NCBI GenBank assembly: GCA_937921555.1
Contig: CAKZUV010000277.1
Location: 1 to 38,184, forward strand
Source of the DNA: an uncultured Saprospiraceae bacterium
GTDB taxonomy: Bacteria; Bacteroidota; Bacteroidia; Chitinophagales; Saprospiraceae
Direction: 5' to 3'
DNA: 38,184 bases
Part shown: positions 3,536-11,784 of the stretch, in pieces
Position numbering within the stretch: the first letter of the stretch is position 1
How the letters are laid out: the number at the start of each line of letters is the position of its first letter
Program-made: the position numbers and the translations under genes
The notes under the pieces: generated by a model
What the model saw: the letters and a program-made list of their open reading frames with translations, nothing else
Database searches by the model: none
What the model was told of the DNA's origin: nothing

Positions 3536-4822
3536 ATGAAGTACCCTTATTTTATTTTTCTGTGTTTCTTCTTTATTTCAATTAGTTGCGGAAAGACAGA
3601 TGAAAGTGATTCAACTGCAAAAAATTCAAGAGGCCAAATTGAATTTCTTCCTCCTATCTGGATCAACACTCATACAGAGAGCGGTCGGTGGTTAGATTAT
3701 TCTTCGTCTACTGGTGGAAATTGGATATTTGGTAATATTGCCGTCGTGCCATTTAGTAACCTGGAAGGAAAAATGACTTTGCGTGGGTTCGATATTTCAT
3801 CTGGAGAATTGATTTGGGAGTGGGGTGACTTTTTCTATCCTGAGCAGGAGGCAATAAATGGGAGATATATTTTTGAAGAGGATGGGATACTTCACTGGAA
3901 AACAGGAAACAAAGCTTACTGGGTAGATATAAGAAACGGGACAACGGTTCAAAAATATGAAACAGATACTTTTGTTACTATTTACAGAAATGACTTGAAT
4001 GGTACCATTTATTGGAATGGACTTGAGACAGATTCTTTACCCGGATTAAAAGTGACAGGAGTATTCACGGGTGATTTTTACGAACCATCACCTACCCTTA
4101 CCCTTCTTCCTGATGTAGATACCACAAAAGTATTTGCTGATGGAAGAGCTACCTCAATTACAACTTCATTGCCGGTAGTTATAGATGGTCAACCTCATTT
4201 AGTAGTTGGATGGCAGCAAATATTTCCTCCACAGTGGATTGTACAATCTTATATGGGATTATACAATTTGGACGAAAAAGAATGGGTCTATAATAATGTA
4301 GTGCTGGGAGAGCAACACGCTTGGGGTAATATCGAAAACCCTTTAGTAAAAAATGATAATACTATAATATCTAATATTAGAACCAAATTATTTTGTTATA
4401 ATTACCTGACCGGTCAGGAAATATGGTCTAAAGAATTTGATCATAAATTTACGTTTTCTGGTTATGAAATTAGCGATGGAATCCTTGTTGCAAATTGTGA
4501 GAATGGAGTGTTGTTTGGTATTAACCCCGAGACCGGTCAAACTATCTGGACTGGAGAAGGTGCAGGGACAAGCAGTTATATCCATGATCGAATCCTCAAT
4601 GGGGTTGTTTACTTTGTAGGTGGTAGTTCAAAATATTTTCATGCGGTGGATATACAAACTGGTCAAACACTATGGAAACTTGATCCTGATCGATACCAGG
4701 AAACATCTAATACATATTGGAATGTAGGTACCGTGTATTGTGCTGACCTTGAAGATGAAAAAAATGGATACATTATTATACAGAATGCGCTTAACACGTA
4801 TTGTTTTGAAGCTGCAAAATAA
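3536..4822 (+). CDS. PQQ-like beta-propeller lipoprotein
   Basis: The 428-residue protein is predicted to be exported and lipidated: a hydrophobic N-terminus (FFFISISC) ends in a lipobox with Cys18. The rest is a beta-propeller of PQQ/BamB-like repeats, visible as recurring 'G-x-x-(I/L)-W' blades: SGELIWEWGDF, TGQEIWSKEFDH, TGQTIWTGEGAG and TGQTLWKLDPDR. Such propellers bind partner proteins or, in dehydrogenases, PQQ; nothing here indicates an enzyme. The ATG is fixed by the lipobox signal. The gene stands alone, facing the minus-strand DUF4197 gene, and the DNA is visibly more AT-rich than that of the FKBP gene. The molecular function remains unknown. Confidence 0.8.
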   Translation: MKYPYFIFLCFFFISISCGKTDESDSTAKNSRGQIEFLPPIWINTHTESGRWLDYSSSTGGNWIFGNIAVVPFSNLEGKMTLRGFDISSGELIWEWGDFFYPEQEAINGRYIFEEDGILHWKTGNKAYWVDIRNGTTVQKYETDTFVTIYRNDLNGTIYWNGLETDSLPGLKVTGVFTGDFYEPSPTLTLLPDVDTTKVFADGRATSITTSLPVVIDGQPHLVVGWQQIFPPQWIVQSYMGLYNLDEKEWVYNNVVLGEQHAWGNIENPLVKNDNTIISNIRTKLFCYNYLTGQEIWSKEFDHKFTFSGYEISDGILVANCENGVLFGINPETGQTIWTGEGAGTSSYIHDRILNGVVYFVGGSSKYFHAVDIQTGQTLWKLDPDRYQETSNTYWNVGTVYCADLEDEKNGYIIIQNALNTYCFEAAK

Positions 4823-6759: not shown

Positions 6760-8622
6760 CTACTTCAAAAAGTCAATACTACTGTTAATAAACTTCGTCA
6801 GATCCGCGCCTTTCAGCATACCCTGATTCAGCAAGGCCAGATTATAAAGGTGCTTTACAAATGCCGTTTTCTTTTCCGCTTTTTTCATACCCACCAACTT
6901 GTTGGCAATCAGATCGTGATTCGTATTCACCACTACATTATAGTGTTCCGGAAAAGCACCTGTATCCATACCTTGCATTTTCTGCATCTCCATCATCCGG
7001 CGCATAAATTCCGGACGCGTAATTACCACCGGCAAATCTTCGGGAGACATCGCCTTCATATCCACGCTGCCACCCGTCGTTCCAACTTCCGTGGTGAATA
7101 ACTCCTTGATTTTCTCCTGCTGTGTTTCACTCAGCACCGATTCTTTTACCTCATCCGTCTGCACCAGATTGTCCACGATATCCGAGTCCACACGCACAAA
7201 CGTTACGTCGCCCAGTTTTTGTTCCAGTTGCTGCATAAAGTGGTTATCAATCACGGTATCAAATTTCAGTATTTGATAACTACGATTCTTCGCCGCCTGA
7301 ATAAAGCTGTCGTGTTCCGTCGGATTATTCGTATAAATCATAATCAGCTTTCCGTGCTTATCCGTCTGCGTGGCTTTGATTTTTTCTTTGTATTCTTCGA
7401 TGGTAAAAAATTCACCGTCTACTGTTTCCAGTAACGCAAATTTCTGGGCCTTGTCGTAAAATTTCTCTTCGGAGATCATTCCGTATTTAACGAAAATACC
7501 GAGGTCTGACCATTTGCTTTCAAAATCCTCGCGGTCCTTTTTAAATAAACTGGCCAGTTTTTCCGCTACCTTTTTGGTAATATATCCGGTGATCTTTTTT
7601 ACGTTAGAATCACTTTGCAGGTAACTACGAGAAACGTTCAACGGAATATCCGGCGAATCAATTACCCCGTGCAACATCGTTAAAAACTCGGGTACAATTT
7701 CTTTTACGTCGTCGGTAACAAATACCTGATTAGAATAAAGCTGAATTTTATTTTTAGAAACTTCAAAATTATTATTCAACTTCGGGAAATATAAAATCCC
7801 CGTCAGATTAAATGGAAAATCGATATTCAGATGAATCCAGAAGAGTGGGGGCTTGCTGTACGGATACAGTTCGTTATAGAAAGACTTATAATCTTCGTCC
7901 TTCAGATTACGGGGACTTTTCTTCCACGCCGGACTCGGGTTGTTGATAATATTGTCAACTTCCGTTTTGATTTCTTTCTGATCATCACCTTCGCCTTCAA
8001 AAGAAGTTTCCGTTTTCGTACCGAACTTAATTTCTATCGGTAAAAATTTACAATACTTATTTAGTAGTGTCTCAATTCGGCCTTCTTCCAGAAATTCGGT
8101 CGCATCGTCGCTGATGTGCAGAATCACGTCGGTACCACGCGGCTTGGTTTCCGCCTTTTCAATTTGGTATTCCGGATCACCATCACAAATCCAGCGTACG
8201 GCACTGCTCTTTTTGTAAGACTTGGTGACCACCTCTACTTTGTCTGCTACCATAAAAGCAGAATAAAATCCCAGACCGAAATGTCCGATGATGCTCGCTT
8301 CGTCTTTATACTTTTTAATAAAATCTTCTGCGCTGGAAAAAGCGACCTGATTCAGGTATTTTTCTACCTCTTTTTCCGTCATTCCGATACCCTTGTCCCG
8401 GATGGTAATTTTTTTGCCGGGTTTGTCCAGAATGATTTCAATAGTTGTGTCTCCGATTTCGCCTTTGACCTCATCTCTGCCGGCCATAGTTTTGAGTTTC
8501 GAAGTCGCATCAACCGCGTTGGCGATCAATTCTCGGAGGAAGATTTCCTGATCAGAGTAGAGGAATTTTTTAATAATGGGGAATATATTTTCCGTTTGTA
8601 CGGAAATTTTACCTTTTGTCAT
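6760..8622 (-). CDS. htpG: molecular chaperone HtpG (Hsp90)
   Basis: This is a cytosolic ATP-dependent Hsp90 chaperone of 620 residues, a typical bacterial length. The GHKL ATPase domain is at the N-terminus: ELIANAVDATSKL (about 31-43, with the Mg-binding Asn), the Asp-containing DKGIGMTE (about 76-83), and the lid/glycine motif GHFGLGFYSAFM (about 113-124). The middle domain carries 'GILYFPK' and the catalytic-loop 'VSRSYLQSD' (Arg about 334). The C-terminal dimerisation region ends in NSSIDFLK. Start and end fit family alignment. It is monocistronic on the minus strand, with an upstream region of about 330 bp shared with the divergent sigma-54 unit. No CIRCE element was seen, so heat control is not evident from sequence. 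Confidence 0.97.
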   Translation of the reverse strand: MTKGKISVQTENIFPIIKKFLYSDQEIFLRELIANAVDATSKLKTMAGRDEVKGEIGDTTIEIILDKPGKKITIRDKGIGMTEKEVEKYLNQVAFSSAEDFIKKYKDEASIIGHFGLGFYSAFMVADKVEVVTKSYKKSSAVRWICDGDPEYQIEKAETKPRGTDVILHISDDATEFLEEGRIETLLNKYCKFLPIEIKFGTKTETSFEGEGDDQKEIKTEVDNIINNPSPAWKKSPRNLKDEDYKSFYNELYPYSKPPLFWIHLNIDFPFNLTGILYFPKLNNNFEVSKNKIQLYSNQVFVTDDVKEIVPEFLTMLHGVIDSPDIPLNVSRSYLQSDSNVKKITGYITKKVAEKLASLFKKDREDFESKWSDLGIFVKYGMISEEKFYDKAQKFALLETVDGEFFTIEEYKEKIKATQTDKHGKLIMIYTNNPTEHDSFIQAAKNRSYQILKFDTVIDNHFMQQLEQKLGDVTFVRVDSDIVDNLVQTDEVKESVLSETQQEKIKELFTTEVGTTGGSVDMKAMSPEDLPVVITRPEFMRRMMEMQKMQGMDTGAFPEHYNVVVNTNHDLIANKLVGMKKAEKKTAFVKHLYNLALLNQGMLKGADLTKFINSSIDFLK

Positions 8623-8821
8623 AGTAAATTGATTTGGTTAAAAAAATAAGGATACGTTGAACTTACAAAGGATTGGTCCTTTTTAAAAAACAACGACGGA
8701 CTTAATGCCAGGCATAAAAAGTACGATATAATAATAGTCAAAGCCTGTACCATCATCTATTTTGTGCCAAATTGACGGTTTTTACACTAAGATACCTTCA
8801 ATAAGCGGCAACTTGGGCAGA

Positions 8822-8889: not shown

Positions 8890-8905
8890 TGGCACACCTA
8901 TTGCA
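8890..8905 (+). promoter_or_regulatory. sigma-54 (RpoN) promoter
   Basis: TGGCAC-ACCTA-TTGCA gives an exact GG-N10-GC arrangement (GG 8891-8892, GC 8903-8904) and matches the consensus TGGCAC-N5-TTGCA at every core position. Transcription is expected to start near 8915, leaving a leader of about 37 nt before the ATG at 8952. Confidence 0.85.
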
Positions 8906-8951: not shown

Positions 8952-9200
8952 ATGAATAAATTTGAAACTTTAAACCAGAAAATCGACGATTTGATTACCC
9001 GCTTTTTTTACAAAGAAGAGCAATTGTATTTTCGGATCATGATTAAGTTAAATGGTGGAACGATGCTTCCGTACAATGATTATGCGGATTATAACGAGTA
9101 TAAGAAAGCTTATGCCAGTTTAGTAGAAAAAAAGCGTTCCGGAGATGCTATTATGAATATCGAATCAGTGGCAAAAACAAGCCAAATGGATTTCGCCTAA
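8952..9200 (+). CDS. small unknown protein under a sigma-54 promoter
   Basis: The 82-residue protein starts MNKFETLNQKIDDLITRFF. It is not recognised. It is soluble, predicted helical, with aromatic residues concentrated in YKEEQLYFRIMIKLNGGTM and YNDYADYNEYKKAYASL, and it lacks a signal peptide or Cys. It is considered real because the ATG lies at a natural distance (about 37 nt) from the sigma-54 promoter at 8890-8905 and no competing start fits. Sigma-54 dependence implies control by an enhancer-binding protein not encoded here. Immediately after its stop lies a second, degenerate sigma-54-like site. Confidence 0.65.
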   Translation: MNKFETLNQKIDDLITRFFYKEEQLYFRIMIKLNGGTMLPYNDYADYNEYKKAYASLVEKKRSGDAIMNIESVAKTSQMDFA

Positions 9201-9214
9201 TGGCACGGTTATTG
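9201..9214 (+). promoter_or_regulatory. degenerate sigma-54-like site
   Basis: TGGCACG-GTTA-TTGAA has a perfect -24 box but GA instead of GC at -12, at the correct N10 spacing. It begins right after the stop of the 82-residue gene and about 55 bp before the next ORF. It could be a weak or decayed promoter, or chance. Confidence 0.3.
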
Positions 9215-9255
9215 AAACTATAAAGAAGGAAACAGAGCGGAACTGAGAAAACTAA

Positions 9256-9453
9256 ATGACTTTCCAATCGTTCAAAATTCCAAATAAAAAAATAACATTA
9301 TCGTCGGCTAAAGAGCCGGAAAGATTGACTAATAGATATTGCGCGTTTGCAGCTACTCCTTTAGGAGGCTGGGAGGTTAGAAATGAAAAAATATTTATTA
9401 TTCAACCGGAAAGATATTTAAGAATTAGGGTCACTTGTGATCTTAAAAGGTGA
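9256..9453 (+). CDS. possible 65-aa protein ending in a hairpin repeat
   Basis: The 65-residue frame (MTFQSFKIPNKKITLSS to RVTCDLKR) is not recognised. It has no signal peptide, is basic, and contains a Gly/Trp patch (TPLGGWEVRNEK). Support is contextual: it follows the 82-residue gene on the same strand, a sigma-54-like site lies 55 bp upstream, and its TGA stop sits at the same place in hairpin copy 1 as the stop of the 23-codon frame in hairpin copy 2. It may be a small protein or a non-coding transcript. Confidence 0.4.
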   Translation: MTFQSFKIPNKKITLSSAKEPERLTNRYCAFAATPLGGWEVRNEKIFIIQPERYLRIRVTCDLKR

Positions 9454-9503
9454 GTGGGACCAGTTTATTGGGGGGTAAAGTTGGTCCCATCGCTCACTTT
9501 TTT
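9450..9503 (+). repeat. G6-loop hairpin, copy 1 (terminator-like)
   Basis: GTGAG (9450-9454) and TGGGACCA (9455-9462) pair with TGGTCCCA (9482-9489) and CTCAC (9493-9497), with a 3-nt bulge. Inside, TTTA pairs with TAAA and presents the loop TTGGGGGG. Six T residues follow. The loop is strictly conserved in copy 2. It can act as a terminator, but the G6 loop is not needed for that. Confidence 0.85.
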
Positions 9504-9552
9504 AATAAAAAATTCTTAAAAAATATTGAAGAACAGATCTTTTGTAGAACCT

Positions 9553-9570
9553 CCCCCCTGAGTTCCCCCC
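9553..9570. other. two C6 tracts between the G6-loop hairpins
   Basis: CCCCCC at 9553-9558 and again at 9565-9570 lie between the two hairpins whose loops each show GGGGGG. In RNA they could pair with the loops. No other C6 tract was noticed in this AT-rich stretch. Confidence 0.6.
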
Positions 9571-9582
9571 GAGTGCAATGTG

Positions 9583-9654
9583 ATGATTAGTACTGGTAAT
9601 GATATAGGGAAATATACAAAGATCTTTAGTGCCAGCAATGGTGCTAATGGGTGA
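9583..9654 (+). CDS. possible 23-aa peptide ending in hairpin copy 2
   Basis: A short frame (MISTGNDIGKYTKIF, ending NGANG) stops at a TGA inside the left arm of hairpin copy 2, exactly at the position where the 65-residue frame stops in copy 1. This may be chance, because the repeat itself supplies the TGA. Confidence 0.15.
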   Translation: MISTGNDIGKYTKIFSASNGANG

Positions 9655-9709
9655 GTGGGACCACTTTATTGGGGGGTAAAATTGGTCCTAACTCACCTTA
9701 ATTTTTTTT
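9650..9709 (+). repeat. G6-loop hairpin, copy 2 (terminator-like)
   Basis: GGTGAG (9650-9655) pairs with CTCACC (9692-9697) and TGGGACCA (9656-9663) pairs with TGGTCCTA (9683-9690). The one arm change relative to copy 1 leaves a G-U wobble, so pairing survives. The core TTTATTGGGGGGTAAA is identical to copy 1. A T-rich tail follows. Confidence 0.85.
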
Positions 9710-9716
9710 AAATAAG

Positions 9717-9752
9717 AAACCTGTTTTGGCTTTTAGCCGAAACAGGTTTTTT
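9717..9752 (+). terminator. rho-independent terminator
   Basis: AAACCTGTTT (9717-9726) pairs with AAACAGGTTT (9740-9749), with GGC/GCC closing the loop and a run of six T at the end. It sits just after hairpin copy 2 and would end any transcript that passes it. Confidence 0.85.
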
Positions 9753-9960: not shown

Positions 9961-10098
9961 CATTATTTTCTGCTTTGAAGATGAAATTAAAAAAGATTGT
10001 CAGCAGGAAATCCCAGCAAAAATTCCCAAAACTTTACCCCGACCCCGAGGGGAGATTTTAAGATTTTTTGCTTAGCTATAATCAATGGAAAACCGTTC

Positions 10099-10173
10099 AA
10101 CAATTCAACAAGCGCAGCGCCTCAACGATTCAACAAGCGTAGCGCCTCAACGATTCAACAAGCGCAGCGCCTC
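10099..10173. repeat. 25-bp tandem repeat, three units
   Basis: Three head-to-tail units of the form AACGATTCAACAAGCG, followed by (C/T)AGCGCCTC, at 10099-10123, 10124-10148 and 10149-10173. They differ at one base each and contain a GCGCAGCGC palindrome (GCGTAGCGC in unit 2). The array ends seven bases before the stop codon of the M28 peptidase gene. Confidence 0.85.
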
Positions 10174-10179
10174 AACAAA

Positions 10180-11784
10180 CTAATCCACCACATCCACCTC
10201 AATCCGCTTCGCCCGATTCGCTAGTTCCCAGGCCGTATAAAAAACCAATCTTCCGATCGTTTCCATTTTATCAAAATTAATTTTATCCACCGTATCGCTC
10301 GGTCGGTGATAATCGTCGTGTGTACCATTGAAATAAAAAATAGCCGGAATGCCCTTTTCCGCAAAGTTATAATGATCAGACCGGTAGTAATAGCGGTTCG
10401 GATCATCTTCGGCATTGTACGTATAATCGAGTTTCAGGTTGGTGTATCGTTCGTTCATCTGCTCGTTGATTTCGTGCAGCTCAGAACTGAGCCGGTCAGA
10501 ACCGATCACATAAATATAGTTGGGAGCCTCTTTGTAGCGGTCATCCACGCGGCCTACCATGTCCACGTTCACGTCGGCAATGGTATTTTCCAATGGGAAA
10601 ATCGGACGTTCTGCGTAGTATTTGGAACCCAATAATCCCTTTTCTTCTCCCGTCATCATCAAAAACAGTACGCTTCGTTTGGGCCCTTGCCCATTTCTTT
10701 TGGCTATAGACATAGCCTCGGCGACTTCCAGGACCGTGGTCGTTCCGGAACCATTATCATCCGCACCGTTGTAAATAACCGGACCCTGTTTGCCCAGGTG
10801 ATCGTAATGCGCAGAAACGACCACAATCTCTTTTTTTAATACGGGATCACTACCTTCGATGTAGCCGAGTACGTTACGACCAATTAATTTTCTTTCGTCT
10901 TTTCCCTGATTGAGCACTAACTTTACAGGTAACGAAACGTTTTTTGCTTTTCCTCTTTTCTGAATTTTTTTACGTGCTTTAATTACTTTCTTATAACGAT
11001 CTCCCATAATTTCTCTGGCCATATCCGTCGAGATAAAAGCACTATTGGCAAAATTGGTTTTTGGATCATCCATTTGACCTAAAGTAATCTGTGAACCAAT
11101 CAGAAATTTGAGCGATTCGGTCAGCATCTTTTTAATTTCGTGATCAATAATCAAAACCGCTTTTGCGCCTTTCTGGTGGGCTGTTCGTAATTTTTTGGAC
11201 CAATCGGTGGACCATTCCGATAATTCTTTTGAGCCAGTAATCCGGGATTTACCATTCTTTTTTAGCGGTTCATTGTTATAAATTAATAAAACCTTTCCGG
11301 TAACGTCAACTCCTTTATAATCGCTGTACCGCTCGTCGTCGATTCCATAACCTAAAAATAAAATTTCGTCGGTTGTCAGATTTGGCAGATCACTGTTCCG
11401 GGTAGGAAAACTGATAAAATCTTTTTTGTGCCGGTAGGACTGTCCGTTGATATTCATTTTTAAATCCCGCCAGGAGTTCCACGTAAAAATGACATTCTGA
11501 AAATAAGAATTATCGTCACCAATTTTTGGCAGTCCCATTCCGATGAATTGATTGGCCAGATACTGAGCGGCCAGATCATTACCGGGGGTACCCGTTTCTC
11601 GTCCTTCAAATTCGTCCGAGGCGATAATCGTAAGGTGGCGACGCATATCTTCCTTCGTAATCGTAGCGGCCAGTTCTTCGACCATACTGAGTTTTTTATC
11701 GTCCGTGGTAATTACCTGGTTCTGGGCCGGGAGAAAATTCAATCCGGACATAATTATTAGAAAAGGAAGTAGTAAGCGTTTCAT
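10180..11784 (-). CDS. secreted M28-family zinc metallopeptidase (aminopeptidase type) with PA domain
   Basis: The 534-residue protein has a signal peptide at about 1-20 (FLPAQ). Its catalytic M28 domain is at about 300-520, with a protease-associated-like insertion at about 135-290 (GVDVTGKVLLIYNN, GAKAVLIIDH). The two-zinc site is complete: His326 in SAHYDHLG, Asp342 in GADDNGSG, the Glu380-Glu381 pair in MMTGEEKGLLGS, Asp408 in VNVDMVGR, and His493 in DDYHRPSDT. It should remove N-terminal residues from peptides in the periplasm or outside the cell. No T9SS tail is present; the C-terminus is short and charged. A TATCTTTA box on the minus strand (11834-11841) is a plausible -7 element. The tandem repeat at 10099-10173 abuts its 3' end. 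Confidence 0.93.
   Translation of the reverse strand: MKRLLLPFLIIMSGLNFLPAQNQVITTDDKKLSMVEELAATITKEDMRRHLTIIASDEFEGRETGTPGNDLAAQYLANQFIGMGLPKIGDDNSYFQNVIFTWNSWRDLKMNINGQSYRHKKDFISFPTRNSDLPNLTTDEILFLGYGIDDERYSDYKGVDVTGKVLLIYNNEPLKKNGKSRITGSKELSEWSTDWSKKLRTAHQKGAKAVLIIDHEIKKMLTESLKFLIGSQITLGQMDDPKTNFANSAFISTDMAREIMGDRYKKVIKARKKIQKRGKAKNVSLPVKLVLNQGKDERKLIGRNVLGYIEGSDPVLKKEIVVVSAHYDHLGKQGPVIYNGADDNGSGTTTVLEVAEAMSIAKRNGQGPKRSVLFLMMTGEEKGLLGSKYYAERPIFPLENTIADVNVDMVGRVDDRYKEAPNYIYVIGSDRLSSELHEINEQMNERYTNLKLDYTYNAEDDPNRYYYRSDHYNFAEKGIPAIFYFNGTHDDYHRPSDTVDKINFDKMETIGRLVFYTAWELANRAKRIEVDVVD

Follow-up and report, generated by a model that had tools for sequence, protein, structure and literature searches.

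Small RNAs controlled by sigma-54, such as Qrr of Vibrio, GlmY, and CrcZ of Pseudomonas, are transcribed from promoters of the −24/−12 type (consensus TGGCAC-N5-TTGCA). Here we describe a candidate small RNA of the Saprospiraceae, a family of bacteria often encountered in wastewater and aquatic samples, that resembles these RNAs (compared by description and by Rfam scan) in lying downstream of a −24/−12-type promoter motif, and resembles Qrr in the presence of several near-identical copies per genome, but that differs from all three in having no Rfam match, in its tandem arrangement within one locus, in its conserved G6 loop, and in belonging to Bacteroidota. Serial hairpins that repeat one short loop motif are also the hallmark of sponge RNAs of the CsrB/RsmZ type, among which CsrB sequesters CsrA; in contrast to the (A)NGGA loops of those RNAs, present in a dozen or more copies, the locus described here has one to four copies of a GGGGGGUA loop, and the (A)NGGA motif did not fit the loops of the 55 copies that we aligned. 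Type III toxin–antitoxin RNAs such as ToxI likewise consist of tandem structured repeats beside a small protein gene, the adjacent toxin gene being of the ToxN/CptN/TenpN type, whereas in our case the small protein gene lies upstream, is not found in most loci, and had no toxin match in the Pfam, NCBIfam, and PHROG searches, and the repeats measure ~60 to 210 nt. Finally, RepG of Helicobacter pylori, as described in the excerpt cited, is a small RNA whose target is a G-repeat in the leader of an mRNA, and while regulation through a homopolymeric G run is a candidate role here too, the G run that RepG meets in its target is in our case located on the candidate small RNA (PMC8295292).

The window, by which we mean the whole 38,184-nt stretch of DNA that was analyzed, comes from an uncultured Saprospiraceae bacterium. 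On its reverse strand lie htpG (6760–8622; Pfam HSP90, E 9e-49), the HSP90 gene and the conserved divergent neighbor of the RNA, and a gene for an M28 peptidase (10180–11784), and the ~1.5 kb between them reads rightward, comprising a small ORF, a pair of G6-loop hairpins at a distance of 201 nt, and a terminator-like palindromic repeat. Each conserved unit consists of two hairpins, a small one (P2) and, after it, a long one (P3). In unit 1, P2 spans 9425–9446 and P3 9448–9501 (both forward strand; match of P3 to the hairpin model R1, E 4e-16), with the six Gs of the GGGGGGUA loop at 9470–9475; in unit 2, P2 spans 9626–9647 and P3 9649–9700 (forward strand; E 6e-14), with the same loop, its G6 at 9671–9676, and a T run behind it. 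Long units add a further stem, P1, with arms of GATTTTTGC / GCAAAGATC type around C tracts (16 spacers aligned). P1 of unit 2 (9536–9624, forward strand) has the arms GATCTTTTGTA (9536–9546) and TACAAAGATC (9615–9624) around both C6 tracts, whose positions in the first-pass annotation, 9553–9558 and 9565–9570, we could confirm. Support for P1 comes from sequence conservation and roughly one compensatory change and is weaker than that for P2 and P3.

The two hairpin copies form a 63-nt direct repeat of 79% identity. That annotation had described them as a pair, at 9450–9503 and 9650–9709, sharing an exact core, and indeed TTTATTGGGGGGTAAA occurs in the window only at 9464–9479 and 9665–9680, these copies being the sole matches with fewer than two mismatches in the 5.4-Mb genome. 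With up to two mismatches the genome gave 11 matches (8 for a backwards control), and the nine others look like background. Because 22 of 100 window shuffles also yield two matches when three mismatches are allowed, the exactness and context of the copies are decisive. Both folds bear out the proposal that the differences between the arms preserve pairing and that the bulges differ in size: copy 1 folds at −28.3 kcal/mol (z −5.8) with a 3-nt bulge and copy 2 at −25.8 kcal/mol (z −3.4) with a 1-nt bulge, and the C-to-T change gives a G-U pair. A role for the short frames was not supported. Their TGA stops, which fall at the same place in each copy, belong to GGTGAGTG, a conserved sequence in the 5′ arm of the stem, and the 65-codon frame that precedes copy 1 runs across an inserted MITE-like element. 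We also rejected the idea that the repeat encodes a peptide (GEWDxFIGG and a stop), given this crossing of the MITE-like element and given that in more distant copies the stem letters differ while pairing is kept.

We found strong support for the initial view of the pair as an RNA element rather than a plain terminator in conservation, covariation, and an excess of G-U pairs; the outcome named in advance as refuting it, an absence of covariation and of conservation, clearly did not occur. Out of 80 listed hairpins (51 last and 29 internal), 55 copies were aligned by sequence and 25 were left out by hand (near-duplicates, truncated copies, and a number of divergent ones); because members were chosen with R1, itself built on the G6 hairpin, structure and loop are favored in this alignment. 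Across the 27 base pairs counted, 91.1% of cells are paired. Changes on both sides occur in 22 of the 27 pairs, compared with 15.7 in shuffles, and in 177 cells, compared with 53.8 in shuffles and 41 to 62 in slid controls; none of 500 shuffles reached either value. Covariation is present in all three helices, and in P2 eight of nine pairs have changes on both sides. The loop reads GGGGGG in 55 of 55 copies, with TA next in 54, and is of ATTGGGGGGTA type in most of them, an invariance that is partly due to ascertainment because the first search pattern and R1 were both built on G6; similar hairpins with GGGGGGA occur in family genomes at loci L140 and L152. G-U cells outnumber A-C cells 172 to 29, which singles out this strand as a folded RNA. 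The same asymmetry weighs against a DNA element, such as a cruciform or a recombination site, a reading to which the tandem copies and the contigs of several relatives that begin or end near the array would otherwise lend themselves. The window hairpins moreover score 77.1 and 68.9 bits on the forward strand versus 14.9 and 22.4 on the reverse, and their orientation to htpG is fixed, leaving this reading highly improbable.

That we are dealing with a genuine conserved structured RNA is near certain. Rfam 15 gave no match in the whole window, and no gathering threshold was reached in the window locus or in L035, a related locus with four units (RsaE scored 26.2 bits against a threshold of 79); nor did we find, in the literature searched, a published description of a tandem G6-loop RNA opposite htpG. 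Small structured RNAs governed by an alternative sigma factor are a familiar kind of element, while the G6-loop tandem family is, as far as we searched, apparently undescribed. It adds to the Saprospiraceae a well-supported structured RNA family that is absent from Rfam 15 as tested.

Conceivably, ordinary intrinsic terminators or 3′ UTR ends were duplicated in tandem and the G6 loop is incidental. A T-rich tail (at least 6 T of 8) follows 28 of the 51 last hairpins and 12 of the 29 internal ones, and several short forms consist of a stem directly before a T run; by the criterion of a G+C-rich hairpin with a T run directly behind it, some G6 hairpins qualify as intrinsic terminators and many do not. 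Such an origin fits poorly with a loop that stays G6 in every aligned copy above drifting stems, with matches in 41 genera that lie mostly at one site, and with the conserved P2 and tandem copies alongside. The window also has a separate terminator-like palindromic repeat behind the array (9714–9752, forward strand), with 18-nt arms that are 89% complementary, a 3-nt loop, and T6 at its end. We consider duplicated terminators improbable. A terminator scan of the window included neither the G6 hairpins nor the 9714–9752 repeat among its predictions.

At E ≤ 0.01, R1 (the covariance model made from 14 hairpin copies) matched 52 of 150 Saprospiraceae genomes, in 41 of 112 genera; the 52 are a lower bound because searches across more than 40 genomes had stricter filters. 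By DNA search, the same locus was found in four genus-mates (G001, G002, G005, and G006), with weaker matches in remoter relatives. Hairpins number one in 30 of 49 loci, two in 14, three in four, and four in one, such that tandem units are present in 19; in the locus with four (L035), they lie beside htpG at intervals of 180 to 192 nt. htpG is present in 42 of the 50 fetched loci. In all 41 htpG-containing loci tested, the RNA is divergent from htpG, upstream of it on the opposite strand, with 243 to 867 nt between the htpG start and the nearest hairpin, and by coordinates the 42nd (L117) has the same placement; the weakest R1 match (E 0.0086, L114) is at htpG as well. We rejected a mobile hairpin element, since this synteny favors descent in place; what is mobile here is the separate MITE-like element. 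We likewise discarded a cis-acting htpG leader: the RNA is on the opposite strand and has no overlap with htpG. Among the eight fetched loci without htpG, four have the M28 neighbor (L086, L087, L102, and L107), of which L086, L087, and L102 stop at a contig end, and at L095 to L098 neither htpG nor an M28 peptidase was found within ~5 kb of the RNA.

A second model, R2, covering P2 and P3, was run at E ≤ 0.01 against 348 genomes of the order, of which 39 matched, and against 395 of the phylum, of which 5 matched; in each set, all matching genomes but one are Saprospiraceae. Because the two exceptions (G223 in the order and G519 in the phylum) were without a G6 loop on inspection, we count them as false positives, and R2 thus gave no convincing match outside the family in these 348 and 395 genomes. 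Within the family, we followed up 30 genomes without a listed R1 match. htpG was found in 29, one of them with just 388 nt upstream, and GGGGGGT lies no more than 1,100 nt upstream of htpG in nine of the 29 on the RNA strand versus one on the other strand. In remoter genomes the RNA takes a short form of stem, G6 loop, and T-run. Short-form G6-loop hairpins with T-runs were also seen at 4159–4242 of L153 (G072) and 4264–4339 of L155 (G078), 9-kb stretches in which htpG was not found, and the RNA may have been moved or copied there. We also set aside a viral origin, for which a search with one exact degenerate pattern returned no viral contigs.

Sigma-54-type promoter motifs are enriched on the RNA strand. 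In the window, TGGCACACCTATTGCA (8890–8905, forward strand) agrees with the consensus at 11 of 11 positions and lies 5′ of the small ORF (shuffle mean 0.03 sites in the region), while a second site, TGGCACGGTTATTGAA (9201–9216, forward strand; 10 of 11), lies right behind the ORF stop and 5′ of the RNA; by motif, both are −24/−12 sites on the correct strand. We scored the 11 consensus positions at a fixed 5-nt spacing, on the RNA strand 5′ of the first hairpin, in 43 loci (44 entered the scan, and L110 was dropped because it has no GGGGGGT). Sites scoring at least 9 were present in 23 of the 43 and sites scoring at least 8 in 28, the other 15 having none even at 8 with this spacing. At a score of at least 9, the 22,717 bases scanned contain 30 sites, a density of 1.32 per kb, compared with 0.11 per kb in a background that comprises both strands of the 50 fetched loci and includes the upstream sites themselves. 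Shuffles for the sigma-54 counts, and for the C-run counts given below, permute non-overlapping 2-mers. htpG itself has a sigma-54-like promoter in the window, TGGTACAGGCTTTGAC, with an upstream imperfect palindrome, GTCAATTTGGCAC (together 8737–8776, reverse strand), and on the htpG strand 39 of the 43 loci have a site of at least 8 (background 0.37 per kb at that score). By eye, many of the 44 htpG loci have a GTCAWWWTGRCA-type palindrome ~20 nt upstream of the −24 element of htpG; the composite pattern of palindrome and sigma-54 site occurs once in the genome, at htpG, and the palindrome is a candidate site for a sigma-54 activator. According to the part of the source cited, the mapped HtpG start of Flavobacterium psychrophilum, another member of Bacteroidota, (2117454) carries a −24/−12 sigma-54 motif, a second start with such a motif lies 118 bp away (2117336, lipoprotein genes), and the starts of GroESL, DnaK, GrpE-DnaJ, Lon, and ClpB also carry it (PMC9723704). 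Excerpts of a second study report that chaperone genes are enriched under predicted sigma-54 sites in Bacteroidota, as is COG0326 (HSP90) in the class Bacteroidia (PMC12316311).

Taken with the position of the RNA, these motifs lead us to favor, as the probable explanation, a small RNA that sigma-54 controls, that belongs to the chaperone response, and that acts through its G6 loop; we infer its transcription, its control by sigma-54, and its regulatory function. In this model, a Saprospiraceae-specific small RNA gene would be transcribed rightward, away from htpG, from the sigma-54-type promoters, whose presence makes it probable that the RNA and HtpG are produced jointly as part of a protein-quality-control response under sigma-54. 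A functional unit would consist of P2, a few nucleotides, and P3, which would present GGGGGG-UA in a loop of ~11 nt and often double as an intrinsic terminator, and tandem units would raise dose or valency. The G6 loop would be the binding face, either pairing with a C-rich RNA in trans or being held by a protein, and in long units C tracts of the same RNA could fold back and mask the loops. The RNA is tied to the chaperone response by position and promoter motif, and its conserved G6 loop on covarying stems raises the testable question of what the loop contacts and whether the C tracts mask it.

The main rival is an RNA–protein module in which the RNA would be the landing site or decoy of a small protein encoded upstream, serving autoregulation or acting as a sponge. 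It owes this rank to the loci L095 and L098, where the small ORF accompanies the RNA in the absence of htpG. In the window the ORF (8952–9200, forward strand; 82 aa) has its own promoter-like site and one copy was found in the genome; it precedes the RNA in 15 of the 50 fetched loci and was found in addition at L132, L144, and L157. An alignment of 20 sequences has invariant F, D, and Y and near-invariant T, L, F, Y, and L, and the protein is predicted to fold as beta-beta-beta-alpha (pLDDT 79.5). A loop that is constant while the stems drift is also seen in protein-binding loops. Against the module, the ORF was undetected in 35 of the 50 loci, some of them cut by contig ends, and the RNA thus seems not to need it, making the ORF an optional companion. 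Searches of Pfam (within the cut-off), NCBIfam, and PHROG gave no match for the protein, and its predicted fold has no clear structural relative (Foldseek best E 0.038; VIA Z ≤ 6.7); Z is below 8 for the structural rows, among them PH-like domains and toxin B subunits, and these rows prove nothing. No clear match to a nucleic-acid-binding fold was among them, although this excludes nothing. On balance, we regard the module as unlikely, if less so than duplicated terminators.

For the small RNA that we favor, the C tracts suggest a way in which the G6 loops could be masked. A kissing or pseudoknot state between the two had been proposed at the outset, and the proposal is partly supported. C tracts are enriched: with the G6 hairpins set aside, the RNA strand of the 43 loci has 41 runs of at least five Cs compared with four such runs of G and 6.6 C runs in shuffles. 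Long spacers (169 to 317 nt between G6 starts) have a run of at least four Cs in 17 of 17 cases, and two such runs in 13, whereas short spacers (60 to 165 nt) have one in none of 13; runs of at least four Gs number three across all 30 spacers. Where aligned, the tracts of the long spacers sit between the arms of the further stem, and other C runs lie 82 to 343 nt ahead of the first G6. At least one run of five or more Cs is present in 23 of the 43 loci and absent from 20, so kissing cannot be the general mechanism. The computed energies of the G6 loop with the C6 tracts are −14.3 and −16.1 kcal/mol, which makes such a state chemically likely where C tracts and G6 loops co-occur and plausible overall. 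Because G6 is invariant, C6–G6 pairing is of a kind for which covariation is unobservable.

With regard to targets in trans, genomic sites for the loop complement TACCCCCC number 30, two of them the loops themselves, compared with 36 for the control; with no enrichment, no C-rich target set is apparent, and we dropped this candidate. Of the 28 sites other than the loops, six have an ORF start no more than 250 nt downstream, a figure without a control. A bolder elaboration, which we consider doubtful, is that the stress-induced array is a self-locking switch, in which C tracts in the spacers would shut the G6 loops and loops once opened would grip a shared C-rich target, with the strength of the switch set by tandem copy number. 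The target might possibly be the ACCUCCU sequence, which we take to be the end of 16S rRNA, and translation would then be retuned during chaperone production; the computed energy of the G6 loop with this assumed 3′ end is −10.7 kcal/mol.

The MITE-like element is an insertion of ~80 bp in the RNA leader (9326–9405, forward strand) and is not part of the RNA family. A 10-bp repeat, CCGGAAAGAT, flanks it at 9316–9325 and 9406–9415. A 25-nt core of the element, with up to three mismatches, has 19 matches in the genome compared with none for a backwards control; the copies have complementary arms that differ from copy to copy and, by eye, flanking repeats of ~8 to 10 bp at several. The element also occurs in six other genomes, and G002 and G006 lack it at the corresponding position. 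The 65-codon frame 5′ of hairpin 1 arose through the insertion and, running through sequence that these two genus-mates do not have there, is not a conserved gene. Elsewhere in the window, a TCAACAATTCAACAAGCGCAGCGCC-type unit with 25-bp spacing occurs three times in tandem at 10097–10176, just past where the M28 peptidase gene ends.
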